This document shows, one piece after another, positions 8,743 to 60,116 of a stretch of DNA of 64,000 bases (its first letter is position 1; each line of letters starts with the position of its first letter). The notes below the pieces were generated by a model, which saw only the letters and a program-made list of their open reading frames with translations, ran no database searches and was not told the DNA's origin. The translations under genes were made by a program, and so were the position numbers. The DNA comes from Bacteroidaceae bacterium (GTDB taxonomy: Bacteria > Bacteroidota > Bacteroidia > Bacteroidales > Bacteroidaceae): positions 1 to 64,000 of the forward strand of contig JAILRU010000135.1 in the NCBI GenBank assembly GCA_024697945.1, in the 5' to 3' direction.

Positions 8743-9016
8743 TTGCGGAAAGGTAGCTCCGCAATTGTGCAATAGCCTTTGCGCAAAATTCCAAAGGCTT
8801 TTGTCAGAATCAGCATTGGGAGGCAACTATTTCTACTGTGCGTAGAAAAACTTTTTCCTCCGAAGAGAAAAAAATATTCCCACGAAGGGAAAAAAACGTA
8901 GGGACGTAATGGCAAAAACGGCGCTTTGCTCGTTGCAAAGATAGTGTTTGCAGCGTGTAAACACTATTCTTGCAGGCTGCAAAAGCCGTTTTTGCAATCA
9001 CTTTCCAAAAGGATTG
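8743..9016. repeat. 11-nt-period intergenic array, alternating partly complementary units (22-nt hairpins)
   Basis: From 8830: tttctactgtg|cgtagaaaaac|tttttcctccg|aagagaaaaaa|atattcccacg|aagggaaaaaa|acgtagggacg|... 17 contiguous 11-nt units to 9016; 22-nt dyad TTGCGGA-N8-TCCGCAA at 8743-8764. Confidence 0.85.
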
Positions 9017-9713: not shown

Positions 9714-9737
9714 TATTATTGTATTTTGAAGTTATTA

Positions 9738-9765
9738 ATTGTCAATTGTCAATTATCAATTATCA
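9738..9765. repeat. Heptanucleotide array ATTGTCA/ATTATCA x4
   Basis: attgtca attgtca attatca attatca; the last unit contains the SLC13 stop codon. Confidence 0.85.
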
Positions 9766-15896: not shown

Positions 15897-15905
15897 CGAT
15901 ATATA

Positions 15906-15933
15906 ATTCAAAATTCAAAATTCAAAATTCAAA
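15906..15933. repeat. Heptanucleotide array ATTCAAA x4
   Basis: Four perfect 7-nt copies in the divergent intergenic region. Confidence 0.95.
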
Positions 15934-15957
15934 AATATAAGAATAGAAAATAATTAT

Positions 15958-15985
15958 GGACTATGGACTATGAACTATGAACTAA
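15958..15985. repeat. Heptanucleotide array GGACTAT x2, GAACTAT, GAACTAA
   Basis: ggactat ggactat gaactat gaactaa. Confidence 0.9.
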
Positions 15986-16020: not shown

Positions 16021-18267
16021 ATGAATCATAAGCTTAATTCTCTCCTTGCAGTCCTGCTGATTACTCCTTTTGTTGTTTCAGCAGAGACAGCTCCCGTCGA
16101 TTACGTGAATCCCTACATCGGTAGCATCAGCCACTTGCTGGTTCCCTGCTTCCCCACAATCCAGCTGCCCAACAGCCTGATGCGTATCTATCCGACGCGT
16201 GGAGACTATACCACCGAGATGCTCGACGGCTTGCCAATGGTCGTTACCAATCACCGCGAGCGTAGTGCCTTCCGCCTAAGCGTCACTCAAGGCGAGGAGT
16301 TGCATCGCATCATTCCCGTCACTTGGGACAACGAGCGCATTACGCCATATGACTACCAGGTACAGGTGGCGGACAATACCATCGATGTGCGCCTTGCCGT
16401 CTCGCACCAGAGCGCCATCTACGAACTGTCGTTCCGCGACCCTGCCAAGCCTGCCACCATTCTCCTTTATACAGATAACGGCCGTATTCAGGTTGACAGC
16501 AGATATGCTTCTGCCAGTCAACGCCTTAGCAAGAACATGAAGATATACTTTGCAGGCGAGTTCGACGTGGTGCCGGAGAAGTCGGGACTTCTTCAGGACG
16601 GGAAGATCAGCGACAAGTGGATTACCGAGGAGCCTCGTGCCTGTGCGGCTCTCCGTTTCCCTGCCGGCACGAAGAAGATATGCTTCCGCTACGGCATCTC
16701 CCTCATCAGCCAGGAGCAGGCGGAGAAGAACCTCATTCGCGAGCAGGGCAAGGACTTCAACCTTGCGAAGGTTGCAAATGCCGGCCGGAAGGAGTGGAAC
16801 GAAACTTTGAGCAATATCCTGGTGTTAGGCGGTACGGACGACCAGAAGACCGTCATGTACACCGCTTACTACCGTACCTTCGAACGCCCTGTCTGCCTGA
16901 GCGAAGAGGGACGTTACTTCTCAGCTTTCGACGGAAAGGTGCATGAGGATGAGGGAAAGCCTTTCTACACCGACGACTGGATATGGGACACCTATCGTGC
17001 CGCTCATCCCTTGCGTGCCCTTATCCAACCAAAGAAGGAGGAGGACATCATCGAGAGCTATCTGCGTATGGCAGAGCAGATGGGGACGAACTGGATGCCC
17101 ACCTTCCCCGAGATGACAGGTGATACGCGTCGCATGAACAGCAATCACGGTGTGGCTATGGTGGCAGATGCACTTTGGAAGGGACTCAACCTGGATGCCG
17201 AGCGTGCCTTTGAGTATTGCCGTAAGGGCATAGAGGACAAGACTTTGGCTCCTTGGAGTGGTCGCCCTGCCGGTGACGGCATCGACAAGTTCTATAAGGA
17301 ACATGGCTACATCCCCGCTCTGGCCAAGGGCGAAGAGGAGACTGACCCCAATGTGACGGGTTTTGAGAAGCGTCAGCCAGTGGCAGTGACGCTCGGGACT
17401 TCTTACGATGAGTGGTGTCTCTCGCGTATTGCCGAGTTCTTGGGAAAGAAAGACGAGACCGCCAAGTACCTCGCCCTCAGCTACAACTACCGCAACCTTT
17501 GGAATGCCGAGACACGCTTCTTCCATCCGAAGGACAAGGACGGCAACTTCCTGCCAGACTTCGACTATCGCTTTGGCGGCGGCATCGGAGCCCGTGAGGC
17601 TTACGACGAGAACAATGGCTGGACCTATCGTTGGGACGTGCAGCACAACCTTGCGGACCTGGCAAGCCTGATGGGAGGACGCGAGGAGATGGCAATGGAG
17701 CTGGACCGTACCTTTGCCGAACCGATGGGGCGTGGCAAGCGTGAGTTCTACGAACAGCTGCCCGACCAGACGGGAAACATCGGTCAGTTCACGATGGCTA
17801 ACGAGCCTTCGCTCCATATACCTTATATATATAATTACGCTGGAGTGCCCTGGAAGACACAGAAGCGCATCCGCCAGTGCCTCGACACATGGTTCCGCAA
17901 TGACGTCATGGGTATTCCGGGCGATGAGGACGGCGGCGGTCTGACATCCTTTGTGGTTTTCTCCTCGTTGGGCTTCTATCCCGTCACGCCTGGCTTCCCT
18001 GCCTACAATATCGGTTCGCCGTTGTTCTCGGACATCCGTGTCAAGTTGCCTGGCGGCAAGGAGTTGCACATCATTGCCAAGGGAAGCAGCCGCGATAACA
18101 AGTACATCCAGCGAGCCACCCTTAACGGCAAGACTTGGGACAAACCCTGGTTCAGTCACGAGGATATTAAGAACGGTGCCACCCTCATCCTCGAGATGGG
18201 CAGTCAGCCCAACAAGCAATGGGGCAGTGCCGAGAATGCCACCCCGCCATCGGCCCCCCTCAAGTAA
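16021..18267 (+). CDS. GH92 family alpha-mannosidase-like enzyme
   Basis: VDYVNPYIGS start motif, NLADLASLMGGREEMAMELDRTF, GDEDGGGLTSFVVFSSLGFYPVTPG; TATCTTTG -7 box near 15992 places the start at 16021, not 15970. Confidence 0.92.
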   Translation: MNHKLNSLLAVLLITPFVVSAETAPVDYVNPYIGSISHLLVPCFPTIQLPNSLMRIYPTRGDYTTEMLDGLPMVVTNHRERSAFRLSVTQGEELHRIIPVTWDNERITPYDYQVQVADNTIDVRLAVSHQSAIYELSFRDPAKPATILLYTDNGRIQVDSRYASASQRLSKNMKIYFAGEFDVVPEKSGLLQDGKISDKWITEEPRACAALRFPAGTKKICFRYGISLISQEQAEKNLIREQGKDFNLAKVANAGRKEWNETLSNILVLGGTDDQKTVMYTAYYRTFERPVCLSEEGRYFSAFDGKVHEDEGKPFYTDDWIWDTYRAAHPLRALIQPKKEEDIIESYLRMAEQMGTNWMPTFPEMTGDTRRMNSNHGVAMVADALWKGLNLDAERAFEYCRKGIEDKTLAPWSGRPAGDGIDKFYKEHGYIPALAKGEEETDPNVTGFEKRQPVAVTLGTSYDEWCLSRIAEFLGKKDETAKYLALSYNYRNLWNAETRFFHPKDKDGNFLPDFDYRFGGGIGAREAYDENNGWTYRWDVQHNLADLASLMGGREEMAMELDRTFAEPMGRGKREFYEQLPDQTGNIGQFTMANEPSLHIPYIYNYAGVPWKTQKRIRQCLDTWFRNDVMGIPGDEDGGGLTSFVVFSSLGFYPVTPGFPAYNIGSPLFSDIRVKLPGGKELHIIAKGSSRDNKYIQRATLNGKTWDKPWFSHEDIKNGATLILEMGSQPNKQWGSAENATPPSAPLK

Positions 18268-18285
18268 AAAGTTTCAATAATCCTT

Positions 18286-18406
18286 GCTCTAAGGCTTCTC
18301 TAAGGCTTCTCTAAGGCTTCTCAGAGCATGCTCAGAGGATCGTCATAGGACCGTCATAGGATGCTCATACTCCAGAGGTATGAGAGCGGTATGGGCGCTA
18401 TGGGGT
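18286..18406. repeat. 11-nt-period intergenic array
   Basis: gctctaaggct|tctctaaggct|tctctaaggct|tctcagagcat|gctcagaggat|cgtcataggac|cgtcataggat|gctcatactcc|agaggtatgag|agcggtatggg|cgctatggggt. Confidence 0.9.
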
Positions 18407-18477: not shown

Positions 18478-18569
18478 ATAGTAATCCTATTGCTGAAAGA
18501 ATACTAATCCTATGCAGGAAGGAATAGTAATCCTTCAGTGGAAGGAATAGTAATCCTTCGAAGGTAGGG
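18478..18569. repeat. 23-nt tandem repeat x4 with internal dyad
   Basis: atagtaatcctattgctgaaaga|atactaatcctatgcaggaagga|atagtaatccttcagtggaagga|atagtaatccttcgaaggtaggg. Confidence 0.9.
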
Positions 18570-18630
18570 ATAGGACGCTAATGACAAAGCGACCTTTACT
18601 ATTCATTGACGTTAAGGTTTCTGGGTGGGT

Positions 18631-26305: not shown

Positions 26306-26346
26306 GGTTGTTATAGGTAAAATTCAAGGCAAAGGTACGAAAAATA

Positions 26347-26374
26347 ATTCATAATTCATAATACATAATTCAAA
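26347..26374. repeat. Heptanucleotide array ATTCATA x2, ATACATA, ATTCAAA
   Basis: Intergenic, between the 26305 start and a terminator. Confidence 0.85.
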
Positions 26375-33386: not shown

Positions 33387-36300
33387 TTAATTGGGAAGGA
33401 TCTTTATTGCCCTTGTGCTTCCGTCTTCAAAAATCTCCTTGCGGATGATGACACCATTGGATTTACCATTCAACGATTTCCTGTCGACTAATTGACCGGC
33501 GACGTTAAAGTACTGTACGGCAACAAGTTTGGACGCAGTGGATGATGCAGGAATGTTCTCTATCTCGTTCGGGTCGTTCCAGTTGGCGGTGAGGTCGAGG
33601 AAGTCAGCCATTCCTATCTTGTTTGCCCTGTCTATGGTGGGCTGGTTCAGGATGGTGGCCATATTCCCGCCGTCGGGATACCTGCCGTAGGTCTGCCATT
33701 TGCCCTGTTCCATGTATTCCAAACAGTCCGTCCACGAGCCGTCTTCGGCTTGTATGCTGACACAGGCTCCATCTGCATTTTTCAGTTTGAAGGGCACATG
33801 CAGCTGGCTGATGGCATCCCTGTCGTCGCACCAGATGATGCGCGTCCCGTGAGCCGGTACAATTAAGTCTCCGCTCTTCATTCCTAATTCTTCATCCTTG
33901 AACTGGAACTTCTGCGGATTGTCGGGATCGTCGCTCAGGTAGAGTCCTTCTAAGCTGATGTCCTGGTTGGTTGTGTTGTAAAGCTCCACCCAGTCGGACT
34001 TCTTGCCATAATCGCTGATGTAGATGTCGTTGCCGGTGCTGACTTCGTTGATGCGCAAGGGCGAGGCTCCTGCCTCTATGCGTTCCTGTTCGTCTGTGAT
34101 AGGTGCGAAGATGGCCCGCAGTATCACGTTGCTGTTATTGCTATAGGTTTCGTGCAAGTCAAATACGTCTTCTGCGGCAATCGTTTCCCCGCCTTTGCTG
34201 GTCAGGGTCAAGTTGCCTTCAAACCACATGTCGGAACTGGTTGCCGAACTGTTCTTTGCCTCTACTGCTATCAGGTTGAGGCCGTCCACTAAATATTCAT
34301 GCGGGATGACGATACTGCCCGAGTAGGGGTATTCCCCCTCATAGTGCCCGCCAGTCGTATAGTCTCTGTACTTGGAGCCGCTATTGACATAGTAGCCGCC
34401 CACCTCATGACCGTTCACGTAGAGCATCATTCCGTCGTCTATCTGGTAGTTGAAGGTCAGGATGTCCGTGTCCAGGAGGGGAGAGTCCAGGTTGAAGGTC
34501 TTGCGGAAATAGTAGGTCGGACGCTTGCTGCTGCTATTGGAGCCATAGTTCAGTTTCGTGACGGAGTTCTCCTGCATGGGGTAGCCGTCATTGGCATATC
34601 CGAAAGGAGCTGTACCAGTGCGCCATCCGTTCTGCCCTTCATCAAAGCCGATGGATTTCCAATCGTAGTCGTCCATTGACCCTCGGTCGAAGTACATCCA
34701 TTCTGCGCCCAAAGGAATCAGGTCGGTTGTGGTGGCTGTCTGATTCTCCGTTCTCCATCCGGTGAAGGTATATCCGGCAGGCGCTTTGGCTGAAAGTTCT
34801 ATGGGTTGGTTGTGGTACGAGAAGAGGTAACCGGCAAACCGGCCTGTGGGTATCTCCTGTCCGTTCACGGCAAGCCGTGCTTCCGGAATGTTGGCTGAGA
34901 TGGTGGCATAGAGCTTGTAGCTTAGGCCATAATAGCTGCGCATGTTGCTGATACGGGTGCCGTTGTATGCATTGCGGATAGTGTATATCAGACTTGTGCT
35001 GGAGCTGCTGCCCTCGAACGACAGAGCAGGATTGGTGTTCTCGTAGATGTTCCAGATGATTTCCTGGCAACGAGTGGGTTCGAACACGCTGCCGTCCACG
35101 ATGCAGTAGGCATCCATGAATTGACGGCGGAAGGGGTCGTACTTCATCAGGTTGCGGAACAGGTCATCCACAGTGGTACCGCCGCTTGTGTTCAGTACAG
35201 ATGTTAGCATGTCGTCTCTGTCAAATGCCGATTCGACATCGAAGAGGACAAAGTGGAACTTGCCGTCCGAGCGGCTGCGGAAGCCCTTTACGTTGTTGGT
35301 GTTCGTTATCCAGTCCGACGGACCCATATAGCAGTCCAGCGCCATGTAGTTGATGTACTCGTCTATGTCAAGGAGTTCGCGTATCTCCTGATAGGTCTCT
35401 TCCGACTTTGTCTGAGCCAGCCGTTTCGCCAACGACAGCAACTTCTTCCAGGCCACGTCGTCGCCCATCTTCTGGTTATATTGTGCATTGCTCAGGTCGA
35501 ACTGGTCCATGTCGTCGAAGTCAATGCCGTAGTTGCTGTATGCAAAGTGCTTGTTGTTGCTCTCGCGTATGTTGAGCATGCCGTAGTAGTCTCCATTCAG
35601 GAAGACATGGGCCGGCTGATAGTCCTGACAATCCACGTAGAATCCGCTCTTCAGTACAATCTGCTGTAGGCCAGGGTCTTTTATGCGTTGGTATGTGTCG
35701 TTTCCGCCGTTGCGTACCTGCCAGCAGCGATATTTGTTGTAGGGTTTTGAGGGGAACACGGGATAGTCTATCGAATTCACTCCTTCGTACCGCTTGTCCG
35801 TCTTGATGCGGAAGGAACTCCGGGCTTCCCAATACCTGTCATCTACGTAGCCTCCTCCGTATGCCCTTGTCCAGCCGCCGCAGATTTCAAGGTCGGCCTC
35901 CTGATTCAAGACCATCTTCCAACCTCTGTCGTCCGTTGTCTGTTGACCGTCGTCTGTCGTCGATGGAATAATATATTCCATGTTTATAGGCCGTTCCCAG
36001 TCCATGTTCCAGTTGCAGGCAGTGCTCTGTCCGTTACCGCTAATGCCGTTAGACCCTCTCACGAAGACTCCCACCTTGTTGTCGAAGAAGTTCTTCGGTT
36101 CCGAACAGATGGACAGGATGGGCAGGTAGTAGTCGTGATTCTGATAGATGTAGCTGCGTGTCACGACGGGACTGGGCAGATACCCGTTCCTGAAGAGACA
36201 AAGTCGCAGGATTGTCGTGGAACTGATTTCGAAGCGACCGTCGGGACTTGTCTCGCCATTGGTGGCTGTCGGTGCACTGCCGTCGGTGGTGTATCGCAGG

Positions 36301-36914
36301 GTGGCAGCCCTTGGGATAGTCACCTGTACCGTAAGGCTTCCGCTGAAGACGCGGCTGTCCGTATCCACCACAGGAGCTCCCAGCCTGAAGGTGGCAAACT
36401 TGCTTGTGGTGTTTGTGGCTCCTGGCGTGGGGCTGCTGGTATATTCCCATTCGTCACCGCCATCCTGAGTGCGTGCCCAGGAACAACGGGCAATGGAGGG
36501 CGGGTAGTCAACGGTCGAGATGACCGAGAGGTCGGAAGCCAGCAGGCTGATGGTGCCGCCTTCCGGTTCCAGTTTGTAGGGAACCTGTCGCCGGGCATTG
36601 GATCCGTAGTTGCCTTCCGAGTAGTGGTGGTCGAACCAGAACGCTTTGAATCCATTTGCAGGCACATTGCCGTGAGCACTCTGGAAGCGCATGTCGTTCA
36701 CCCCGTCGCTCAGATGCATACCTGCGAGAGAGATGGCGGTGTCGTTCGGATTATAAATCTCTATCCAACTACCGTAACAATTGGCATTGTCCAGAAACTG
36801 ATCCAGGTTAGCAACCTGAACCTCATTGATTATCAATGTTTTATCTGCCGTTTCCTGTGCCAGCATAAATGCAGGAAAAAGTAGCAATAGAAGGCTGATT
36901 ATGTAGTTTCTCAT
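33387..36914 (-). CDS. CotH-kinase family secreted protein with lamin-tail domains
   Basis: LIINEVQVANLDQFLDNANCYGSWIEIYNPND (LTD); VFLNGDYYGMLNIRESNNKHF...DWITNTNNVKGFRSRSDGKFHFVLFDVESAF (CotH); TLRYTTDGSAPT. Confidence 0.85.
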   Translation of the reverse strand: MRNYIISLLLLLFPAFMLAQETADKTLIINEVQVANLDQFLDNANCYGSWIEIYNPNDTAISLAGMHLSDGVNDMRFQSAHGNVPANGFKAFWFDHHYSEGNYGSNARRQVPYKLEPEGGTISLLASDLSVISTVDYPPSIARCSWARTQDGGDEWEYTSSPTPGATNTTSKFATFRLGAPVVDTDSRVFSGSLTVQVTIPRAATLRYTTDGSAPTATNGETSPDGRFEISSTTILRLCLFRNGYLPSPVVTRSYIYQNHDYYLPILSICSEPKNFFDNKVGVFVRGSNGISGNGQSTACNWNMDWERPINMEYIIPSTTDDGQQTTDDRGWKMVLNQEADLEICGGWTRAYGGGYVDDRYWEARSSFRIKTDKRYEGVNSIDYPVFPSKPYNKYRCWQVRNGGNDTYQRIKDPGLQQIVLKSGFYVDCQDYQPAHVFLNGDYYGMLNIRESNNKHFAYSNYGIDFDDMDQFDLSNAQYNQKMGDDVAWKKLLSLAKRLAQTKSEETYQEIRELLDIDEYINYMALDCYMGPSDWITNTNNVKGFRSRSDGKFHFVLFDVESAFDRDDMLTSVLNTSGGTTVDDLFRNLMKYDPFRRQFMDAYCIVDGSVFEPTRCQEIIWNIYENTNPALSFEGSSSSTSLIYTIRNAYNGTRISNMRSYYGLSYKLYATISANIPEARLAVNGQEIPTGRFAGYLFSYHNQPIELSAKAPAGYTFTGWRTENQTATTTDLIPLGAEWMYFDRGSMDDYDWKSIGFDEGQNGWRTGTAPFGYANDGYPMQENSVTKLNYGSNSSSKRPTYYFRKTFNLDSPLLDTDILTFNYQIDDGMMLYVNGHEVGGYYVNSGSKYRDYTTGGHYEGEYPYSGSIVIPHEYLVDGLNLIAVEAKNSSATSSDMWFEGNLTLTSKGGETIAAEDVFDLHETYSNNSNVILRAIFAPITDEQERIEAGASPLRINEVSTGNDIYISDYGKKSDWVELYNTTNQDISLEGLYLSDDPDNPQKFQFKDEELGMKSGDLIVPAHGTRIIWCDDRDAISQLHVPFKLKNADGACVSIQAEDGSWTDCLEYMEQGKWQTYGRYPDGGNMATILNQPTIDRANKIGMADFLDLTANWNDPNEIENIPASSTASKLVAVQYFNVAGQLVDRKSLNGKSNGVIIRKEIFEDGSTRAIKILPN
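35923..35964. repeat. Heptanucleotide array inside CotH CDS
   Basis: cctctgt cgtccgt tgtctgt tgaccgt cgtctgt cgtcgat; encodes STTDDGQQTTDDRG. Confidence 0.85.
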
Positions 36915-36985
36915 GAGTTTTAGGCATATTTTTTTTGCAAATATACGAAAAAGAATTCATGAAGTTGAAATAATTTTCGAATTTC

Positions 36986-37017
36986 TTTGGTAATTGTTGA
37001 AAAAATCACTAACTTTG
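36986..37017 (+). promoter_or_regulatory. Canonical Bacteroidetes promoter directed into the 37.1-kb array
   Basis: TTTG-N20-TAACTTTG; no convincing ORF of its own before the next promoter. Confidence 0.65.
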
Positions 37018-37100
37018 CATCAAGATATCGATTTGTCTTTGCGGAGTTGTTTGTAAAGATTCGATGGTATCAATCCCTCAATATTTTCCAAGAAAATCCC

Positions 37101-37364
37101 AGACCAAGTCTATACCAAGTCTATACCATCTCTATACCAAGTCTATACCAACTCTATAGCCCCTCCACTCCCTCTCTGGTTCCTCTCATGTTGCCCTCAT
37201 GTCGCTCTCATGTTGCCCTCATGTCGCTCTCATGTTCCCCTCTAATCGCTGTCTAATTCTATATATTAGAGGAAATATAGAGAAAGAGTGGAGGGAACTC
37301 GGAGAAAACATGGAGGGGACATGGAGAAAAGATGGAGGAAACATGGGGTGAACGTTGATTAAAA
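37101..37364. repeat. 24-unit 11-nt-period array with pyrimidine-rich left and purine-rich right half (imperfect giant inverted repeat)
   Basis: agaccaagtct|ataccaagtct|ataccatctct|ataccaagtct|ataccaactct|...|tgttgccctca|tgtcgctctca|tgttgccctca|tgtcgctctca|...|atggaggggac|atggagaaaag|atggaggaaac|atggggtgaac. Confidence 0.93.
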
Positions 37365-37459
37365 ACAGCAGAAACCTAAATTACTTAAAAATAAAAGAGT
37401 TTTGTTTTGTAGTGTGAATGCTTTTTCGTAACTTTGCGGCGCAAACTAAAGAAATTGCC

Positions 37460-40400
37460 ATGAAGAGAGTACTTACATTATTAATATTATGCGTTTTCGC
37501 ATGTATGGGTTTCCTTCCTTCGGTAGCATACGCTGATGCACCTGTCGAGGATGGTGTGTATTATATCTCCAATACTTCAGTGGAAGGATATCTGGGCTTG
37601 GGGTCCTACCACAGTGTTGCCCCCTTCATCTATTATGTGACCGACGGGCAGGAGATGACAGCTGATGCCTATTGGGTGGTGACAAACACACGGTCGGGCT
37701 ATACCTTCCGCAACGAAGCCACAAATGAGTTGCTTGTCTTCACTTATGACCGCATTGACCAGTACTACAAGTACATGACGCTGGCATCCGAGGCTCCTGA
37801 TGACCATTCTCAATACTGGAACATCATAGAGGGCGACGATGGGGCGGTATGCATTCAGAGTGCCTATGATACCGACTATTACTGGAACCTTCGCAGCGGA
37901 ACGAACATGATGGGGACCTATAGGGGAAGTTACGGCTCGGGTGCAAACGAGCGCTATGTCTTTCATAAGAAGGGTGAAAAGCCGGACATCGACCCTGACC
38001 CCGACCCCTCCACGGTGATGCCGACCTTCCCCAAGGCGTTGCATGTCTATCTGAACGACGGACGGCTTGAAGCCTATCCCCTGGAGTATGTGACAAACTA
38101 CTCGGAGGTTGACGGTAAGCTGAACATCGAAACCAATCTCAACTGGACCTATAAGTACGACCTCTCCTTGGTGGATTCGGTGAGCGAGAATACGCCTACT
38201 GACTTCCCCACCTTCGAGACATACAAGTTCAATAACAGTTTCAACGACCAGCTCTTCACCACTGCCAATGGTGAAATAGTGGGCGATACGGTATTTGTTA
38301 CGCTTGCTGCCATAGGCAAACGCCTGACCCCCTCGTTCAAGGTGGCAGACGAAACTGTGGAAGCCTATGTGGATGAGAAACTCCAGAAGAGCAAGGAGAC
38401 CCGCCTGCGTTTCGACAAGGACATTTATTATATCGTGGCCAGGAAGGGGTGCAAGATACTGACCCCCGAGGCGGACGGCAAGTATTTCCTGAAACCTTAC
38501 GGCCGTTATGTCCGCGTTCATGTCGATTGGCTGACAGACCGTGCCGAAGTGCCTACCATCTATATCAATACTGCCGACGGACAGGCTATAACCAGCAAGG
38601 ACTACTTCAAGGATGCTACCATCAGCATCGACGGTCACGGCATCTTCCCCTCGATGGAAGAGACAGCCATGCAAATCAAGGGTAGGGGAAACAGCAGCTG
38701 GGGCTGGCCCAAGAAACCCTACCGCATGAAGTTCGAAGAGAAAGTGAAACCCTTGGGCATGACCAAGGGTAAGAACTGGGTGTTGCTGTCCAACTACCAG
38801 ACGGGCTCGCTGATGTCGAACGCCGTGGGCATGAAGGCTGCCAACTTGATGGGCGCTGCTGCCGCCAACCACATCGTGCCGGTGGACTTGTACCTCAACG
38901 GCGAATATCGCGGCAGCTACAACCTGACGGAGAAGGTGGGCCTCGCAAACAACAGCGTTGATTTGGATGACGAGACGGCTGCCGCCCTGCTGGAGCTTGA
39001 CTCCTATTACGACGAGCCATCGGGACAGAAGTTCCGCTCCAGCCCTTACAACCTGCCCATCAACATCAAGGAACCTGAGTTCGACGAAGGCACAACCTCC
39101 CTCACGTTGGAGATGATACAGAACGACTTCAATGGCTTCATGAAGACGCTCAAAAACGCAGGTGACATCTCGCGCCACGTCGAAGTGGACCCGTTGGTGC
39201 GCTTCCTCATGGTGAACGAGCTCATCTGCAACTTCGAGCTCTACCATCCCAAGAGCACGTTCTGCTACCGCGAGAGCTTCGAGGCCGACACCAGTAAGTA
39301 TGTCTTCGGACCTGTCTGGGATCTCGACTGGGGCTTCGGCTACGAGCAGCACCGCAGCTACTTCAAGGACAACATCACCACCAACTACTGGACTAAGATG
39401 CCCAACATGGAGGTGATACAGTTCATTCAGGACCTCCGATGGAACTACGAGCCGATGTGCGACCTCTACAAGCAACTCTGGAAGAAGTTCATGGACAACG
39501 ACCTGCAGGAACTGATGGAGTACTGCCAGGACTACTACGACTTTGCCCACAACTCGTTCGACAGCAACCGCGATGTTTGGGGCGACAGGACGAACTATGC
39601 GCAGCAGGCCAAGGATGCAGCCAACTGGTTGCAGCAGCGTTCCCAAAAGATTTACGAGGATATCCTCAACGACGTGCGTCCTCCCAAGCCTGAACCGGTT
39701 GATCCTGTCGAGTTTGCAAATGACAAGCTCTACACCCTCACCTGTAAGCGTGGCGAACTGATACTCAGCTATGACTATCAGGGACTGGAGGCAGGTCAGA
39801 GCGCATGGTGGACAGTGGAAGACTATGAGAAACAGTTCGCCATCATCAACATCGAGGGTAACAACTACCTCTACAGCCCCCACCTGAAGAGCTACCTGAG
39901 AACCGGCTATGCCTCAAACGGCGAATGGGTGAAGCAATTAGGATCGCCCATCTACTTCGACACAAATAACCCAGACGGGAAGTACCAGTTCATGATAAGC
40001 ACGCTCACCGACTACGGAACGACGCTGTGGTTCAATAACAATTCTAGCACAATCGTCATCAACTCATGGAATACACCTGACGACGGAGACCGGTGGTACA
40101 TAGCAGAAGTGGGTGACTTCGACCCGACGGAGGCTCTGGAACTTGCTCAGGCCGACCTGCTGGCCATAACCATTAATCTTATGTATGACGGTGAAGTCAT
40201 TGCTACAGTGACAAAGGATCTGCCTTACGGTGCAGATATGCCAGAGCCACCAGCTGAATGGAGCAACGCTTTTGTGACGCTGGAGCCTGTTGGCATACAT
40301 CCGTATATGGTCACAGAGGAGACGACCATTGCCTACGAAGCTGAGTGGGTGGGTCCCTTCGACTTTACGACCTCGTTGGAAGACTCAAAGTGGTACAACA

Positions 40401-40924
40401 TGACCATCCGCTCGGACTACATGGTGGGCAAGACGGATTCAGAGCCCTACTATCCCGTAGCGGTGGATGACTCGGATACGCCGTACTTGTTAACCTATCA
40501 GTGGGCTTTCGCCGGTAACCCTTATAAAGTAAAGGTATATAACCGTTCCACAGGATTGGACGAAGTGCTGACGCTTGTTGGTCAGGACGGCGTTATGCGT
40601 CCTGGTGATTACGAGTGGGAGATACTGCCCAACCGAGACGGCTTCGTGCTCCGCGTGCCTGGCTCGGGCACTTGGTGTCTCAATCAGTTCGGTGGCGGTG
40701 GTGGTCCTCTTCGCTATTGGGACAGTCAAAATAGCCTGACAGATAATGGTTCCACCTTCCGTGTGACAGAGGCGCCAGATCCGGACGGCATTGTTGAAGT
40801 CCATAGTTCAGAGTCCATAGACCATGGTTCTGCTGTCTATGACCTCAGCGGACGACGCATTGATAATCGTAAGTTGTCTCAGGGCATCTACATTGTCAAT
40901 GGAAAGAAAATTGCGATTAAGTGA
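37460..40924 (+). CDS. CotH-kinase family secreted protein with lectin-like module and sorting-like tail
   Basis: MQIKGRGNSSWGWPKKPYRMKF...GPVWDLDWGFG; own promoter TTTG-N19-TAACTTTG just upstream places the start at 37460, not 37418. Confidence 0.88.
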   Translation: MKRVLTLLILCVFACMGFLPSVAYADAPVEDGVYYISNTSVEGYLGLGSYHSVAPFIYYVTDGQEMTADAYWVVTNTRSGYTFRNEATNELLVFTYDRIDQYYKYMTLASEAPDDHSQYWNIIEGDDGAVCIQSAYDTDYYWNLRSGTNMMGTYRGSYGSGANERYVFHKKGEKPDIDPDPDPSTVMPTFPKALHVYLNDGRLEAYPLEYVTNYSEVDGKLNIETNLNWTYKYDLSLVDSVSENTPTDFPTFETYKFNNSFNDQLFTTANGEIVGDTVFVTLAAIGKRLTPSFKVADETVEAYVDEKLQKSKETRLRFDKDIYYIVARKGCKILTPEADGKYFLKPYGRYVRVHVDWLTDRAEVPTIYINTADGQAITSKDYFKDATISIDGHGIFPSMEETAMQIKGRGNSSWGWPKKPYRMKFEEKVKPLGMTKGKNWVLLSNYQTGSLMSNAVGMKAANLMGAAAANHIVPVDLYLNGEYRGSYNLTEKVGLANNSVDLDDETAAALLELDSYYDEPSGQKFRSSPYNLPINIKEPEFDEGTTSLTLEMIQNDFNGFMKTLKNAGDISRHVEVDPLVRFLMVNELICNFELYHPKSTFCYRESFEADTSKYVFGPVWDLDWGFGYEQHRSYFKDNITTNYWTKMPNMEVIQFIQDLRWNYEPMCDLYKQLWKKFMDNDLQELMEYCQDYYDFAHNSFDSNRDVWGDRTNYAQQAKDAANWLQQRSQKIYEDILNDVRPPKPEPVDPVEFANDKLYTLTCKRGELILSYDYQGLEAGQSAWWTVEDYEKQFAIINIEGNNYLYSPHLKSYLRTGYASNGEWVKQLGSPIYFDTNNPDGKYQFMISTLTDYGTTLWFNNNSSTIVINSWNTPDDGDRWYIAEVGDFDPTEALELAQADLLAITINLMYDGEVIATVTKDLPYGADMPEPPAEWSNAFVTLEPVGIHPYMVTEETTIAYEAEWVGPFDFTTSLEDSKWYNMTIRSDYMVGKTDSEPYYPVAVDDSDTPYLLTYQWAFAGNPYKVKVYNRSTGLDEVLTLVGQDGVMRPGDYEWEILPNRDGFVLRVPGSGTWCLNQFGGGGGPLRYWDSQNSLTDNGSTFRVTEAPDPDGIVEVHSSESIDHGSAVYDLSGRRIDNRKLSQGIYIVNGKKIAIK
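40801..40828. repeat. Heptanucleotide array (CCATAGT family), coding
   Basis: ccatagt tcagagt ccataga ccatggt at the CotH tail junction. Confidence 0.7.
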
Positions 40925-54517: not shown

Positions 54518-54638
54518 TACCGATGTCATACCAAATGACGGTCTGATTACTACCAGCATATGGTACGACCAATACCACCTACTGGTACTGCCAGTACCAA
54601 ATTCTGGTACGGATAGTACCACCTGCTGGTACTTTAGA
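54518..54638. repeat. 11-nt-period array with alternating TACC / GGTAC units
   Basis: taccgatgtca|taccaaatgac|ggtctgattac|taccagcatat|ggtacgaccaa|taccacctact|ggtactgccag|taccaaattct|ggtacggatag|taccacctgct|ggtactttaga. Confidence 0.93.
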
Positions 54639-56573: not shown

Positions 56574-59500
56574 TCAATCGCTGCTTCTTACAAATATCTT
56601 TTGCCCGTTGTTGATATATAGTCCCCTTTTTAATTTTAATGAAGAGTGAAGAGTGAAGAGTGAAGAATTTGCTCCCTCTCTGATTTTTCGGCCAGCGAGG
56701 TCATAGACGGCATTATCATTTATCATTTGTCCTTTATCATTTAGACGCGGGGCGTCGCCAATGCCCGTGGTGTTGTCGTAGTCGATGGTTACTACGTCGC
56801 CTTGCTTCACTCCGGGAATGGTATAGACATCGCCGTCTGCAATGGGCGCTACGCTTTCTCCGTTGAGGCGGAAGGTATATACTGCATTTTTCAGTTTTGC
56901 ATAGCGGATGCGCAGGGGCTGTCCGGCATGGCTGGTGATGGTGGCGCTGGTAATGGTGCCGTTCTGCCATGTCTCATCGACGGTGAAACCTGCCTGGGCC
57001 TTCAGGCCTGCAACGCTGCCGTCTTTCCAGGCGGATGGCAATGCGGGAAGCAGGGTGATGATGTCATCGTAGGACTGCAGCAGCATTTCGCAGATGCCGC
57101 TGGTGCAGCCGTAGTTGCCGTCGATCTGGAAGGGCGAATGGGCATCGAAGAGGTTGTAGTAGCATCCGCCGTAGTTGCCCATCTCGATGACGTAGCTGCC
57201 GGAGTGCCGGAGTGCCAGCGAGAGATTTTTGCGGGCGCGGTCGCCGTCGAGGCAGCGGCTGTAGGTGTTGGTCTGCCAACCCATCGACCATCCGGTCACG
57301 TCGCCGTTGCGGGCTATCTGTCCGTTGTAGGCTGCCTGGAACAGTCGCTTGCCTGCTGTGCTCTGGTCGTAGGCGCTAACCTGCGAGAAGGGATAGAGGC
57401 ACATGAGGTGGGAGAGGTGGCGGTGACCCGGGTCAGAGAGGGGATTGTTCTTCCACTCGGAGATGCAGGTCTTGCCATTGTAGGTCTCGGTCCACAGTCC
57501 TTTGTCGAAGTTGTCGTAGAGGTCCTGGATTACTGCTATCTCTGCTGCCGTCAGTGGCGATTCCTCGCCCAGCTCTGCGTGTCCCTTCATTACCTCGTCG
57601 AGCACTTCGTAGCTGGTCTGCTGTGCAAAGGCCGTCACGTCGGTGGGTCCGTGCTCGGGGCTCCATTCGCCTGTGATTTCATAGAGTCCTTTGCTGTCCT
57701 TGGTGGCGATGGATTTGGTGAAGAGGGCGCACTGGTACATGACGGGCAGGGCTCGCTTCAGGAACTCGCGGTCCAATGTGTATTTATAGTAGCGCCAAAG
57801 GTGTGTGCAGTACCACGACCCGCAGGTCTTGATGGAGCCGTTGCACCAGTTGGATGTGCCGCCGAAGATGTTGTTCTCCACGGCTACCATCCATCCCTTG
57901 GCTCCGCTTTTGACTTTGCTTGCCAGCTGATACCAGGGCGAATTGGAGCCAGGTGCGCCCAGGTCGAGGATGTAGTTGAGGAAGGGCAGGTGCATCTCGG
58001 AGAGGTTGGCGGGGTCTGCGGGCCAGTAGTTCATCTGGACGTTGATGTCGGCGTGTATGTCGCAATGCCAGAAGCTGGTGTTGCTGCGGTCGTTCCAGAT
58101 GCCTTGGAGGTTGGAGGGCGCATGGATGGTGGTGTCGAGGTTGGCGCCGATGGTGAGGTAGCGGCCGTACTGGAAGTAGAGGGCTTCGAGGAAGAGACCG
58201 TCGCTGCTTGCCTTGTTCTGCGTCGAGGCGTTGTAGTATTTGATGAGGTCCTCGGTGGTCTTGGTCGAGCTTCCGCCCAGGTTGAGGCTGACGCGGTTCA
58301 TCAGGGCGCTGTGGGCTGCCTTGTGGTCGGCAAGAAGTGTCGCAAAGCCCTTCACGGCAGCTTCATCGATGCGAGTGCTGACTGTGGCGGAGAGTTCAGA
58401 AGCCGTCGCTCCGCTCTTGCAATTTGCTTTGCTCGCGTCGTAATCCGTAGCGGCAGCCATGATGATGTTCACCCAAGACGCGCCACTGACATTGATGCCG
58501 TTGGAGCTTGTGACTATTGTGCCGTTGCTCTCCACCTTGAAGCGTGTGTTGTAGCTGACAATCTGCATCTTGCCGGAGAATGTCGCGGAGGCTGTTCCGT
58601 CGTCTTCCAAAGCGTATGTCACACTGCTCGCATTGATTTCGGTGTCGGGCGCGTAGCTGATGTCGAGATCCATCGTTTCCTGTCCCACCGATTCGTACAC
58701 CGCCTCGTAGTGTGCCACGAAGACGCGGTCTGTGGCAGAGGCGAAGTAGCGGCGTTGGAAGGTGGTCTGATGGTCAGGCGACTGGAAGTTGACGCCTGCC
58801 ACGCCGTCTATGATGTCGAGGAAGCGGTTGTAGTTTTCGATGGGTTTGCCGTCGGACGAAGCAGCCGAGAAGGTTCCGCTCTTGTCCTTGACTAGAATCG
58901 AGCCGAAGTTCTGGAAATAGCCCTGATTGCCGGAGTTGGTGGCTGTGCCGCTCCAAAGCGTTTTCTCGTTGAACTGTATGTCGTCGCAGAGCACGCCGCC
59001 GCGAATGGTGGCGCCAAGCTGGCCGTTGCCCATCGGCAGGGCATACTCCATCCATGTGTCGGAGACGCCTGTCGCTGTGGCGGGGACGTCGTACCACAGG
59101 GAGAAGTCGTGGATGTCGGTCGGACGCGAGCCTTTCTCTCCTACGCAGAACTCGGTGGGCTGGACATCTGCTTCAGCGACGAGGTAGAGGATGTTGTTGA
59201 CGTCTGAGGCCTGCCAGAGTCCGATTTCCTTGCCTACTCCTGTGCCGCCCCATTGGTTTAAGTAGCGGTTGGCCTGACCTGCTGCACCCAACCAGGCTAT
59301 CTCGTAGTTGCCGGCATAGTTCGTGTTTTTCGTCATCTCGATGGTGAAGCCGTTGGCATCTGCACCAGCGCGCGTCTTGAGTCTGTTGCCGTCGTAATAG
59401 GCTTTGCGCCCTGAGCCTTTGTTGACGAGCTGGAAGTTGTTCTCGTTGCCGACGAGTTTCCACAGCTGGCTCGGTTCGCCGTACTTACGTCCCTGCGTTG

Positions 59501-60116
59501 TGACGTTTTTGCCTGCCCCCATGTCCTGGAGCACGAGGCTCGAGTTGGCGAAGGTGACATAATAGTAGCCGTCCTCCTGTTCCTCTGTAGAGAAGAAATC
59601 GGGAATGCCCTGAATGGTGAGGATGAAGCGTGAGCCGGCATCGTTGCTGCCAGAGGCATTGTCCCAGTAGGCGAGGTAGTCCCCACGTTTGTTCCAGTAC
59701 TTGTGCTCGGAGCCGTGGTCCTTGATCCAGAAGCCCGCGCCGTTCTTGCCCATGTCGAACTTGGTGACATTCTTGTTGTTGTCCTCCGTCACCATCTTAG
59801 CTCTGCCATTGGCTTCGGAGCCTGTCATACCAAGCACGTATCCTTCGCCTCGGGCTTTGTTGTAGAAGGAGTAGCCGTCGGTGTCGTTACCGATGAAGGT
59901 CCAAAGGCCTGTGTCCTCAGTGTCTTCGGTGGTGTTGTTCAGTAACAGATATACGCCATCCTTGTAGCCGGTCTTGAAACTGAGATAACCGCCGTTGGCA
60001 ACTTTGATGGTGTACCACTTTGCCTTGCTCAGGTCGGCAGCACTGGCATGGGTGAAAGGGTGAAAAGGAGAAAAAGTGAAAAGGAGTAGAATCAGAAGAA
60101 GTGTTATACGTTTCAT
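56574..60116 (-). CDS. GH95-like alpha-L-fucosidase with N-terminal lectin-like module and sorting-like tail
   Basis: [63 protein letters not shown]; tail [10 protein letters not shown]...[19 protein letters not shown]. Confidence 0.92.
56641..56668. repeat. Heptanucleotide array GAAGAGT x3 plus GAAGAAT, coding
   Basis: gaagagt gaagagt gaagagt gaagaat in the GH95 tail. Confidence 0.9.
56711..56745. repeat. Heptanucleotide array (ATTTATC family), coding
   Basis: cattatc atttatc atttgtc ctttatc atttaga at the GH95 tail junction. Confidence 0.85.

Follow-up and report, generated by a model that had tools for sequence, protein, structure and literature searches.

A strict 11-nt tandem array between divergent cotH genes in a Bacteroidaceae genome, tentatively read as a two-way Rho-loading element

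Introduction

Several described systems place short tandem repeats next to promoters. In the parC/ParR system of plasmid R1, 11-bp repeats flank a promoter, whereas type III toxin-antitoxin systems (ToxIN-like) consist of a promoter, a tandem-repeat RNA and a gene, with repeats of about 35-40 nt and pseudoknot folds. In Bacteroidota, promoters follow the TTTG/TAnnTTTG rule. Rho-dependent terminators form another class, one that is hard to predict because rut sites are almost without sequence signature, and to our knowledge few rut sites have been mapped in Bacteroidota.

What has been described of rut sites is a matter of composition and spacing: repeated (YC)N9-13 motifs within stretches where C exceeds G (PMC9160355), or 78 nt of C>G sequence in which a C recurs every 11-13 nt, followed by a hairpin (PMC6407284). 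Among repeats without a fixed reader, REP/BIME elements are dispersed and intergenic, have inverted symmetry and have been given proposed roles in termination and mRNA stability (PMC3733652). Long simple sequence repeats (SSRs) with units of 5-11 nt, mostly heptamers, accumulate in some genomes, and polymerase slippage has been proposed as their source (Mrazek et al. 2007, as summarised in PMC4679880). The same account describes sets of TAACTGA heptamers in Beggiatoaceae, many of them just upstream of start codons (PMC4679880).

Here we analyse an array at positions 37101-37364 of a 64,000-nt stretch of DNA from a Bacteroidaceae bacterium, hereafter the window. A sequence-only reading of this DNA had concluded that no known class of feature explained the array, a conclusion that overlooked rut sites, whose published descriptors (PMC9160355; PMC6407284) combine repeated YC and N9-13 in a C>G stretch. 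Our literature search found no description of 11-nt intergenic repeats in Bacteroidota. We put forward, at somewhat less than even confidence, that the array is a two-way Rho-loading (rut-like) element, i.e., a terminator or attenuator-insulator made of two opposed arrays of 11-nt units.

Results

Two opposed arms of 11-nt units

The array lies between two ORFs of annotated size that encode CotH-domain proteins and are transcribed divergently: 33387-36914 on the minus strand, with CotH/LTD domains, and 37418-40924 on the plus strand, with its ATG at 37460. The features of the region are the following.

36937..36945, minus strand: -7 element TATATTTGC, presumed promoter of the left-hand cotH-like gene (TAnnTTTG match).
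36986..37017, plus strand: candidate promoter into the array, by sequence match (TTTG at 36986-36989, a 20-nt spacer, TAACTTTG at 37010-37017).
37022..37090, plus strand: leader between the presumed start site and the array, with a predicted hairpin at about 37024-37071 (fold).
37101..37254, plus strand: left arm, 14 units of 11 nt, ATACCAAGTCT-type then TGTTGCCCTCA-type, with YC at phase 9-10 throughout.
37243..37275, no strand: turn between the arms, with the short palindromic CTAATTCTATATATTAG (counterpart CTCTAATGTATAGGATTAGAG in the sister array).
37257..37364, minus strand: right arm, a like array on the minus strand, CTCCATGTTTT-type units, YC phase occupancy 0.90.
37429..37437, plus strand: -7 element TAACTTTGC, presumed promoter of the right-hand cotH gene (ATG 37460, ORF to 40924).

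The sequence-only reading had parsed 37101-37364 into 24 contiguous units of 11 nt, and this parse holds, with accurate boundaries and no gaps. The autocorrelation check that it had suggested gave an identity of 0.644 at lag 11, against 0.249 in 1000 dinucleotide shuffles (z 13.8). Lags 22 (z 14.5) and 33 (z 10.0) follow, no other lag from 5 to 35 rises above z 4 relative to these shuffles, and the lag-11 signal is found in each arm taken singly (left, 37101-37256, z 12.2; right, 37257-37364, z 5.4). The mirrored arrangement of a pyrimidine half on the left and a purine half on the right, in an 11-nt register, is also real and far above chance. It is nevertheless a loose inversion, judging from the purine-rich right arm, whose reverse complement yields units that are CTCCATGTTTT-like. 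We rejected a coding repeat, given the intergenic position of the array and a unit length that three does not divide.

Neither a sigma-70-type promoter nor an intrinsic terminator pattern was found in 36900-37500. A 23-nt inverted repeat (36937-36959 / 37415-37437) surrounds the array and raised the possibility of an invertible promoter; its arms coincide with the outward-facing promoters of two related genes, and we therefore do not take it to be a recombination site.

C-rich arms with YC in a single phase

A polymerase entering from either side would transcribe, in the arm on that side, a strand rich in C and poor in G. The left arm (37101-37256) has 57 C and 18 G, the right arm, read on the minus strand, 36 C and 7 G, and the best 78-nt stretches have 32 C to 6 G (plus strand, 37121-37198) and 33 C to 6 G (minus strand, 37280-37357). 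In a ranking by C minus G of every 78-nt stretch in the 64 kb, both strands included, the right arm comes second and the left arm third, the first being inside the ORF at 56574-60116. YC occurs in a single phase of the 11-nt period, in 14 of 14 left-arm units and at 0.90 of the right-arm positions. In the left arms of the window array and of its sister L050 taken together, YC is at positions 9-10 in 28 of 28 units; position 10 alone never varies, and position 9 varies twice, each time by a T/C exchange that keeps YC. Since any tandem repeat with YC in its unit gives such phase locking for free, the weight of the argument falls mainly on the switch of unit type along the array: the ATACCAAGTCT-type and TGTTGCCCTCA-type units have nothing but TC in common. 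Two elements of the rut description, C>G over about 78 nt or more and YC or C spaced every 9-13 nt, are found in the window array.

The same change of units bears on a different reader. The location between divergent promoters and a unit of 11 bp, close to the turn of B-DNA, would suit an operator array, in which a protein would sit on each 11-bp unit of double-stranded DNA, nearly on one face of the helix, spread from both sides and control the divergent promoters. The 11-bp repeats of plasmid R1 are a precedent, and the private unit sequences of the DUF6266-like leader arrays (see below) are what private operators would have. A protein of this kind would, however, meet units that change completely within one array, with only TC kept, and 24 units at 11 bp drift by more than one 10.5-bp turn. 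Many period-11 arrays, furthermore, lie between convergent genes or after gene ends. We regard an operator array as improbable.

Orientation relative to transcription

We compared the strand composition of period-11 arrays with the direction of the transcription that reaches them. In 62 arrays, the side at which transcription would arrive from a gene end or promoter (the incoming side) was C>G 38 times and C<G 13 times (sign test, p 0.0006). The incoming side was also the richer in C in 24 of the 32 one-sided arrays, against 8 (p 0.007). A CTC pattern served to retrieve many of these arrays; it biases the set towards C-rich strands without preferring either orientation to the genes. The orientation bias is absent from the period-7 arrays used as a control (18 vs 25). 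When every incoming side is set against all the others, the difference is weak (Mann-Whitney, p 0.059), in part owing to the two-armed arrays, where C exceeds G on either side; both sides were above 0 in only 2 of the 10 arrays with incoming signals at both sides. The pyrimidine arm comes first in 12 of 14 two-armed arrays (p 0.013), the exceptions being the ACGAG-TTTT-CTCGT arrays of genomes G030 and G031. In these genomes, hairpin arrays of opposite polarity, with ACGAG units, a TTTT loop and CTCGT units, occur in many places (L144, L147, L149).

RNA structure

The window array had been described as a giant inverted repeat, possibly selected as RNA because 11 nt is about one turn of an A-form duplex. 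Its arms do lie opposite one another, yet their pairing is no stronger than that between arms taken from unrelated arrays: -44.8 kcal/mol for the cognate arms and a mean of -43.3 kcal/mol for non-cognate ones, among which are homologous arms oppositely oriented. As for the weak structure that the loading region of a rut site would have, the evidence is mixed: the sense strand folds less well than its complement, but the arms are paired in the minimum-energy fold of the entire region. The expected long stem is unexceptional relative to shuffles (z -1.8 for the 381 nt of 37020-37400, z -1.2 for 37085-37364). We thus observed neither a fold well below shuffles nor covarying arms, the marks of a long-stem RNA. 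Among the promoter-driven arrays, the transcribed strand is less stably folded than the complement in the window, L050, L044, L052 and L077, the exception being L079; selection for G-U pairs is therefore not indicated. No Rfam 15 family scored above its gathering threshold in 36900-37470, the one sub-threshold match being ST7-AS1_2 (20.4 bits vs 50). With a weak fold, average cognate pairing and no G-U asymmetry, a giant RNA hairpin is not supported for the window array, and neither is the A-form duplex idea.

Other arrays keep a more general version of this idea in play, according to which the transcript would be a long hairpin with 11-bp A-form phasing, acting as a noncoding RNA or as a leader element. 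Promoters lie just upstream of the arrays of the window, L044, L131, L052 and L069/L076. The related arrays L113, L115, L119, L078 and L133 fold strongly, with z from -7 to -11 (L113 -10.7, L119 -11.0), and in L119, L078 and L077 the cognate arms rank first to fifth among pairings. On the other side stand the results for the window array and for the transcribed strands, the several leader arrays with one arm (L275, L276) and the lack of an Rfam match. We find this explanation improbable.

The strongly folding arrays belong to a sub-family (L113, L115, L119, L078, L133, L136, L138, L142, L146) with central 11-mers of the TTCGGTA/ACCGAA type. It recurs in seven species with a constant layout and altered sequence. 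Its folds are far more stable than those of shuffles, so that a role of RNA or cruciform structure is possible in this sub-family. Another structured candidate is an apparently noncoding stretch of 158-166 nt that is 93-95% identical in three genomes (L046:7868-8033, L277:382-538, L218:918-1085) whose coding DNA is far more diverged; it has a hairpin near its end and no Rfam match.

Copies of the array and their spread

The same genome carries a sister array that is 80% identical across 226 nt (C116), and weaker kin (C98, C101). Many substitutions separate the window array from its sister L050, yet the two can be aligned unit by unit, with the same order of unit types and no unit gained or lost through the left arm and the turn; this comparison of unit number is that of one sister pair. 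A four-fold pattern of CTC every 11 nt has 101 matches in the genome, clustering into dozens of arrays. The five-fold pattern has 63 matches at period 11, none at period 10 and 7 at period 12, the latter in simple- or coding-like repeats. Matches were found in 39 of 121 genomes of the genus, and in only 5 of 148 genomes of a class-wide sample outside it. Among the matches listed for named genomes, noncoding arrays also occur in Prevotella, Alistipes, Chitinophaga and other Bacteroidota. Random samples of two genomes, about 538 kb of G000 and 379 kb of G131, contain an excess of periods 7, 11 and 22; these samples and the pattern searches are the basis of the genome-wide counts.

The window contains further repeats. 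A second period-11 array (CTCTAAGGCTT, then CTCATAGGATC) lies between convergent genes at 18265-18376 and is followed, at 18478-18573, by an array of 23-nt repeats with internal dyads (GGAATAGTAATCC). Intergenic arrays of small palindromes with a 22-nt period are found at 54551-54632 and 8810-9001 (TACCA...TGGTA; TTTGCA-rich). Period 7 is the most frequent repeat period in this genome, and heptamer arrays (TTATCAA, AATTCAA, ATAATTC) occur at 9732-9765, 15905-15984, 26344-26372 and elsewhere, several adjoining -7 promoter elements.

The arrays might be the functionless product of neutral expansion in a lineage prone to slippage on 7- and 11-nt units, with the inverted form arising by template switching between hairpin arms. 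The excess of periods 7, 11 and 22 agrees with this, as does the published record of 5-11 nt units in other genomes (Mrazek et al. 2007, as summarised in PMC4679880). Neighbouring units of the window array are also the most alike (0.73 at distance 1, falling to 0.32-0.36 at distances 8-9). Furthermore, no array was found upstream of the cotH orthologues of five relatives (G131, G069, G115, G104, G033; 63-78% identity), whose left neighbours differ, at least in part, from those of this locus. This makes the array lineage-specific at this locus, and speaks against a conserved element there. Yet a slipping repeat would not be expected to align without gain or loss of units and to keep the order of its unit types, as the sister pair does, and YC survives the substitutions. 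Neutral expansion also sits poorly with the enrichment of arrays of differing units in the leaders of one gene family, and with the orientation of the C>G strand to transcription. We consider it unlikely, while giving it real weight.

Arrays in the leaders of DUF6266-like genes

Period-11 arrays are present in the leaders of 10 of 16 DUF6266-like genes and in 11 of 144 upstream regions in general (p about 1e-6), the 16 leaders including close copies and so not being fully independent. One protein reaches the Pfam cut-off for DUF6266 and the others are its relatives by alignment, most members falling outside the Pfam model; a literature search for DUF6266 found no mention. The order is fixed in L052, L121, L278, L279, L269, L272, L044 and others: a promoter, a leader of 60-100 nt, a period-11 array and the start codon. 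The units differ between leaders (CTCATGTTGAA, CTCTGTTCCCG, CTCTAGTTCAT, GCTAGGTTACC, TCAAGGTTAGT, CTATACCAACT). The window array has no adjoining gene of this family.

Some leader arrays are not C>G in the sense of the transcript, namely GCTAGGTTACC in L275, TCAAGGTTAGT in L276 and the purine-rich leader of L114. A rut role therefore cannot cover every period-11 array, and rut composition fails as a rule for all of them. The conserved quantity may instead be the 11-nt spacing, read by an RNA- or DNA-binding protein. The arrays would then form a lineage-specific regulatory system in which gene-private leader units are under the control of the downstream DUF6266-like proteins, as autoregulatory pairs, and solitary arrays are targets or relics. 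We think this has a small chance of being right.

Discussion

The proposal of two-way Rho loading accounts for the window array as follows. Each arm would give the nascent RNA an untranslated, C-rich and G-poor stretch with YC every 11 nt. Whichever side a polymerase came from, it would begin with the pyrimidine arm on that side, and Rho loaded on this RNA would end transcription within the turn and the far arm or beyond them. The array could in this way stop transcripts from the 37010 promoter, and stray ones from the other side, short of the divergent cotH genes. In the DUF6266-like leaders, arrays of this kind, placed between the promoter and the start codon, might act as attenuators. We infer Rho binding, termination and regulation at the array from its period, composition and phase-locked YC, from the orientation bias and from the promoter match. 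The genome encodes one Rho, with a full RNA-binding domain and a long charged N-terminal stretch; by eye, it has the residues that we take to form the cytosine pocket of E. coli Rho, one Tyr being replaced by Phe. It counts against the rut reading that period-11 arrays are concentrated in one genus although Rho is widespread.

If the rut reading is true, these arrays are a natural series, varying in unit number, phase and C content, with which to test how YC spacing affects Rho loading. Should Rho not be the reader, an explanation is still needed for leader arrays that occur across the genus, conserved in spacing, independent of sequence and tied to the DUF6266-like family.

Comparison with known systems

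The DUF6266-like leaders resemble ToxIN-like systems in their order of promoter, tandem-repeat RNA and a gene of one family. The window array differs from these systems in having no such gene, and we know of no DUF6266-like protein that is a ribonuclease. Period-11 arrays share with REP/BIME (PMC3733652) a dispersed, intergenic distribution and inverted symmetry, but REPs are palindromes of 20-40 bp with a fixed sequence, whereas period-11 arrays are 60-490 nt long and defined by their period. The long SSRs and the TAACTGA heptamers, as presented in PMC4679880, are like the array in being short-unit tandems, largely intergenic and sporadic. The window array differs from them in that its unit is 11 nt long, degenerate, mirrored and changing in register, and in that the sister pair compared shows no gain or loss of units through the left arm and turn.

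The closest likeness is to rut sites and Rho-dependent terminators. Like them, the array is C-rich, G-poor, longer than 78 nt and, from its position between ORFs, presumably untranslated, with YC every 11 nt, a spacing within (YC)N9-13, and it occurs without an intrinsic terminator pattern in a genome that has a Rho gene. Known rut sites are irregular, whereas the window array keeps a strict 11-nt tandem period, runs in opposite directions on the two strands and is accompanied by related copies, dozens of them per genome.
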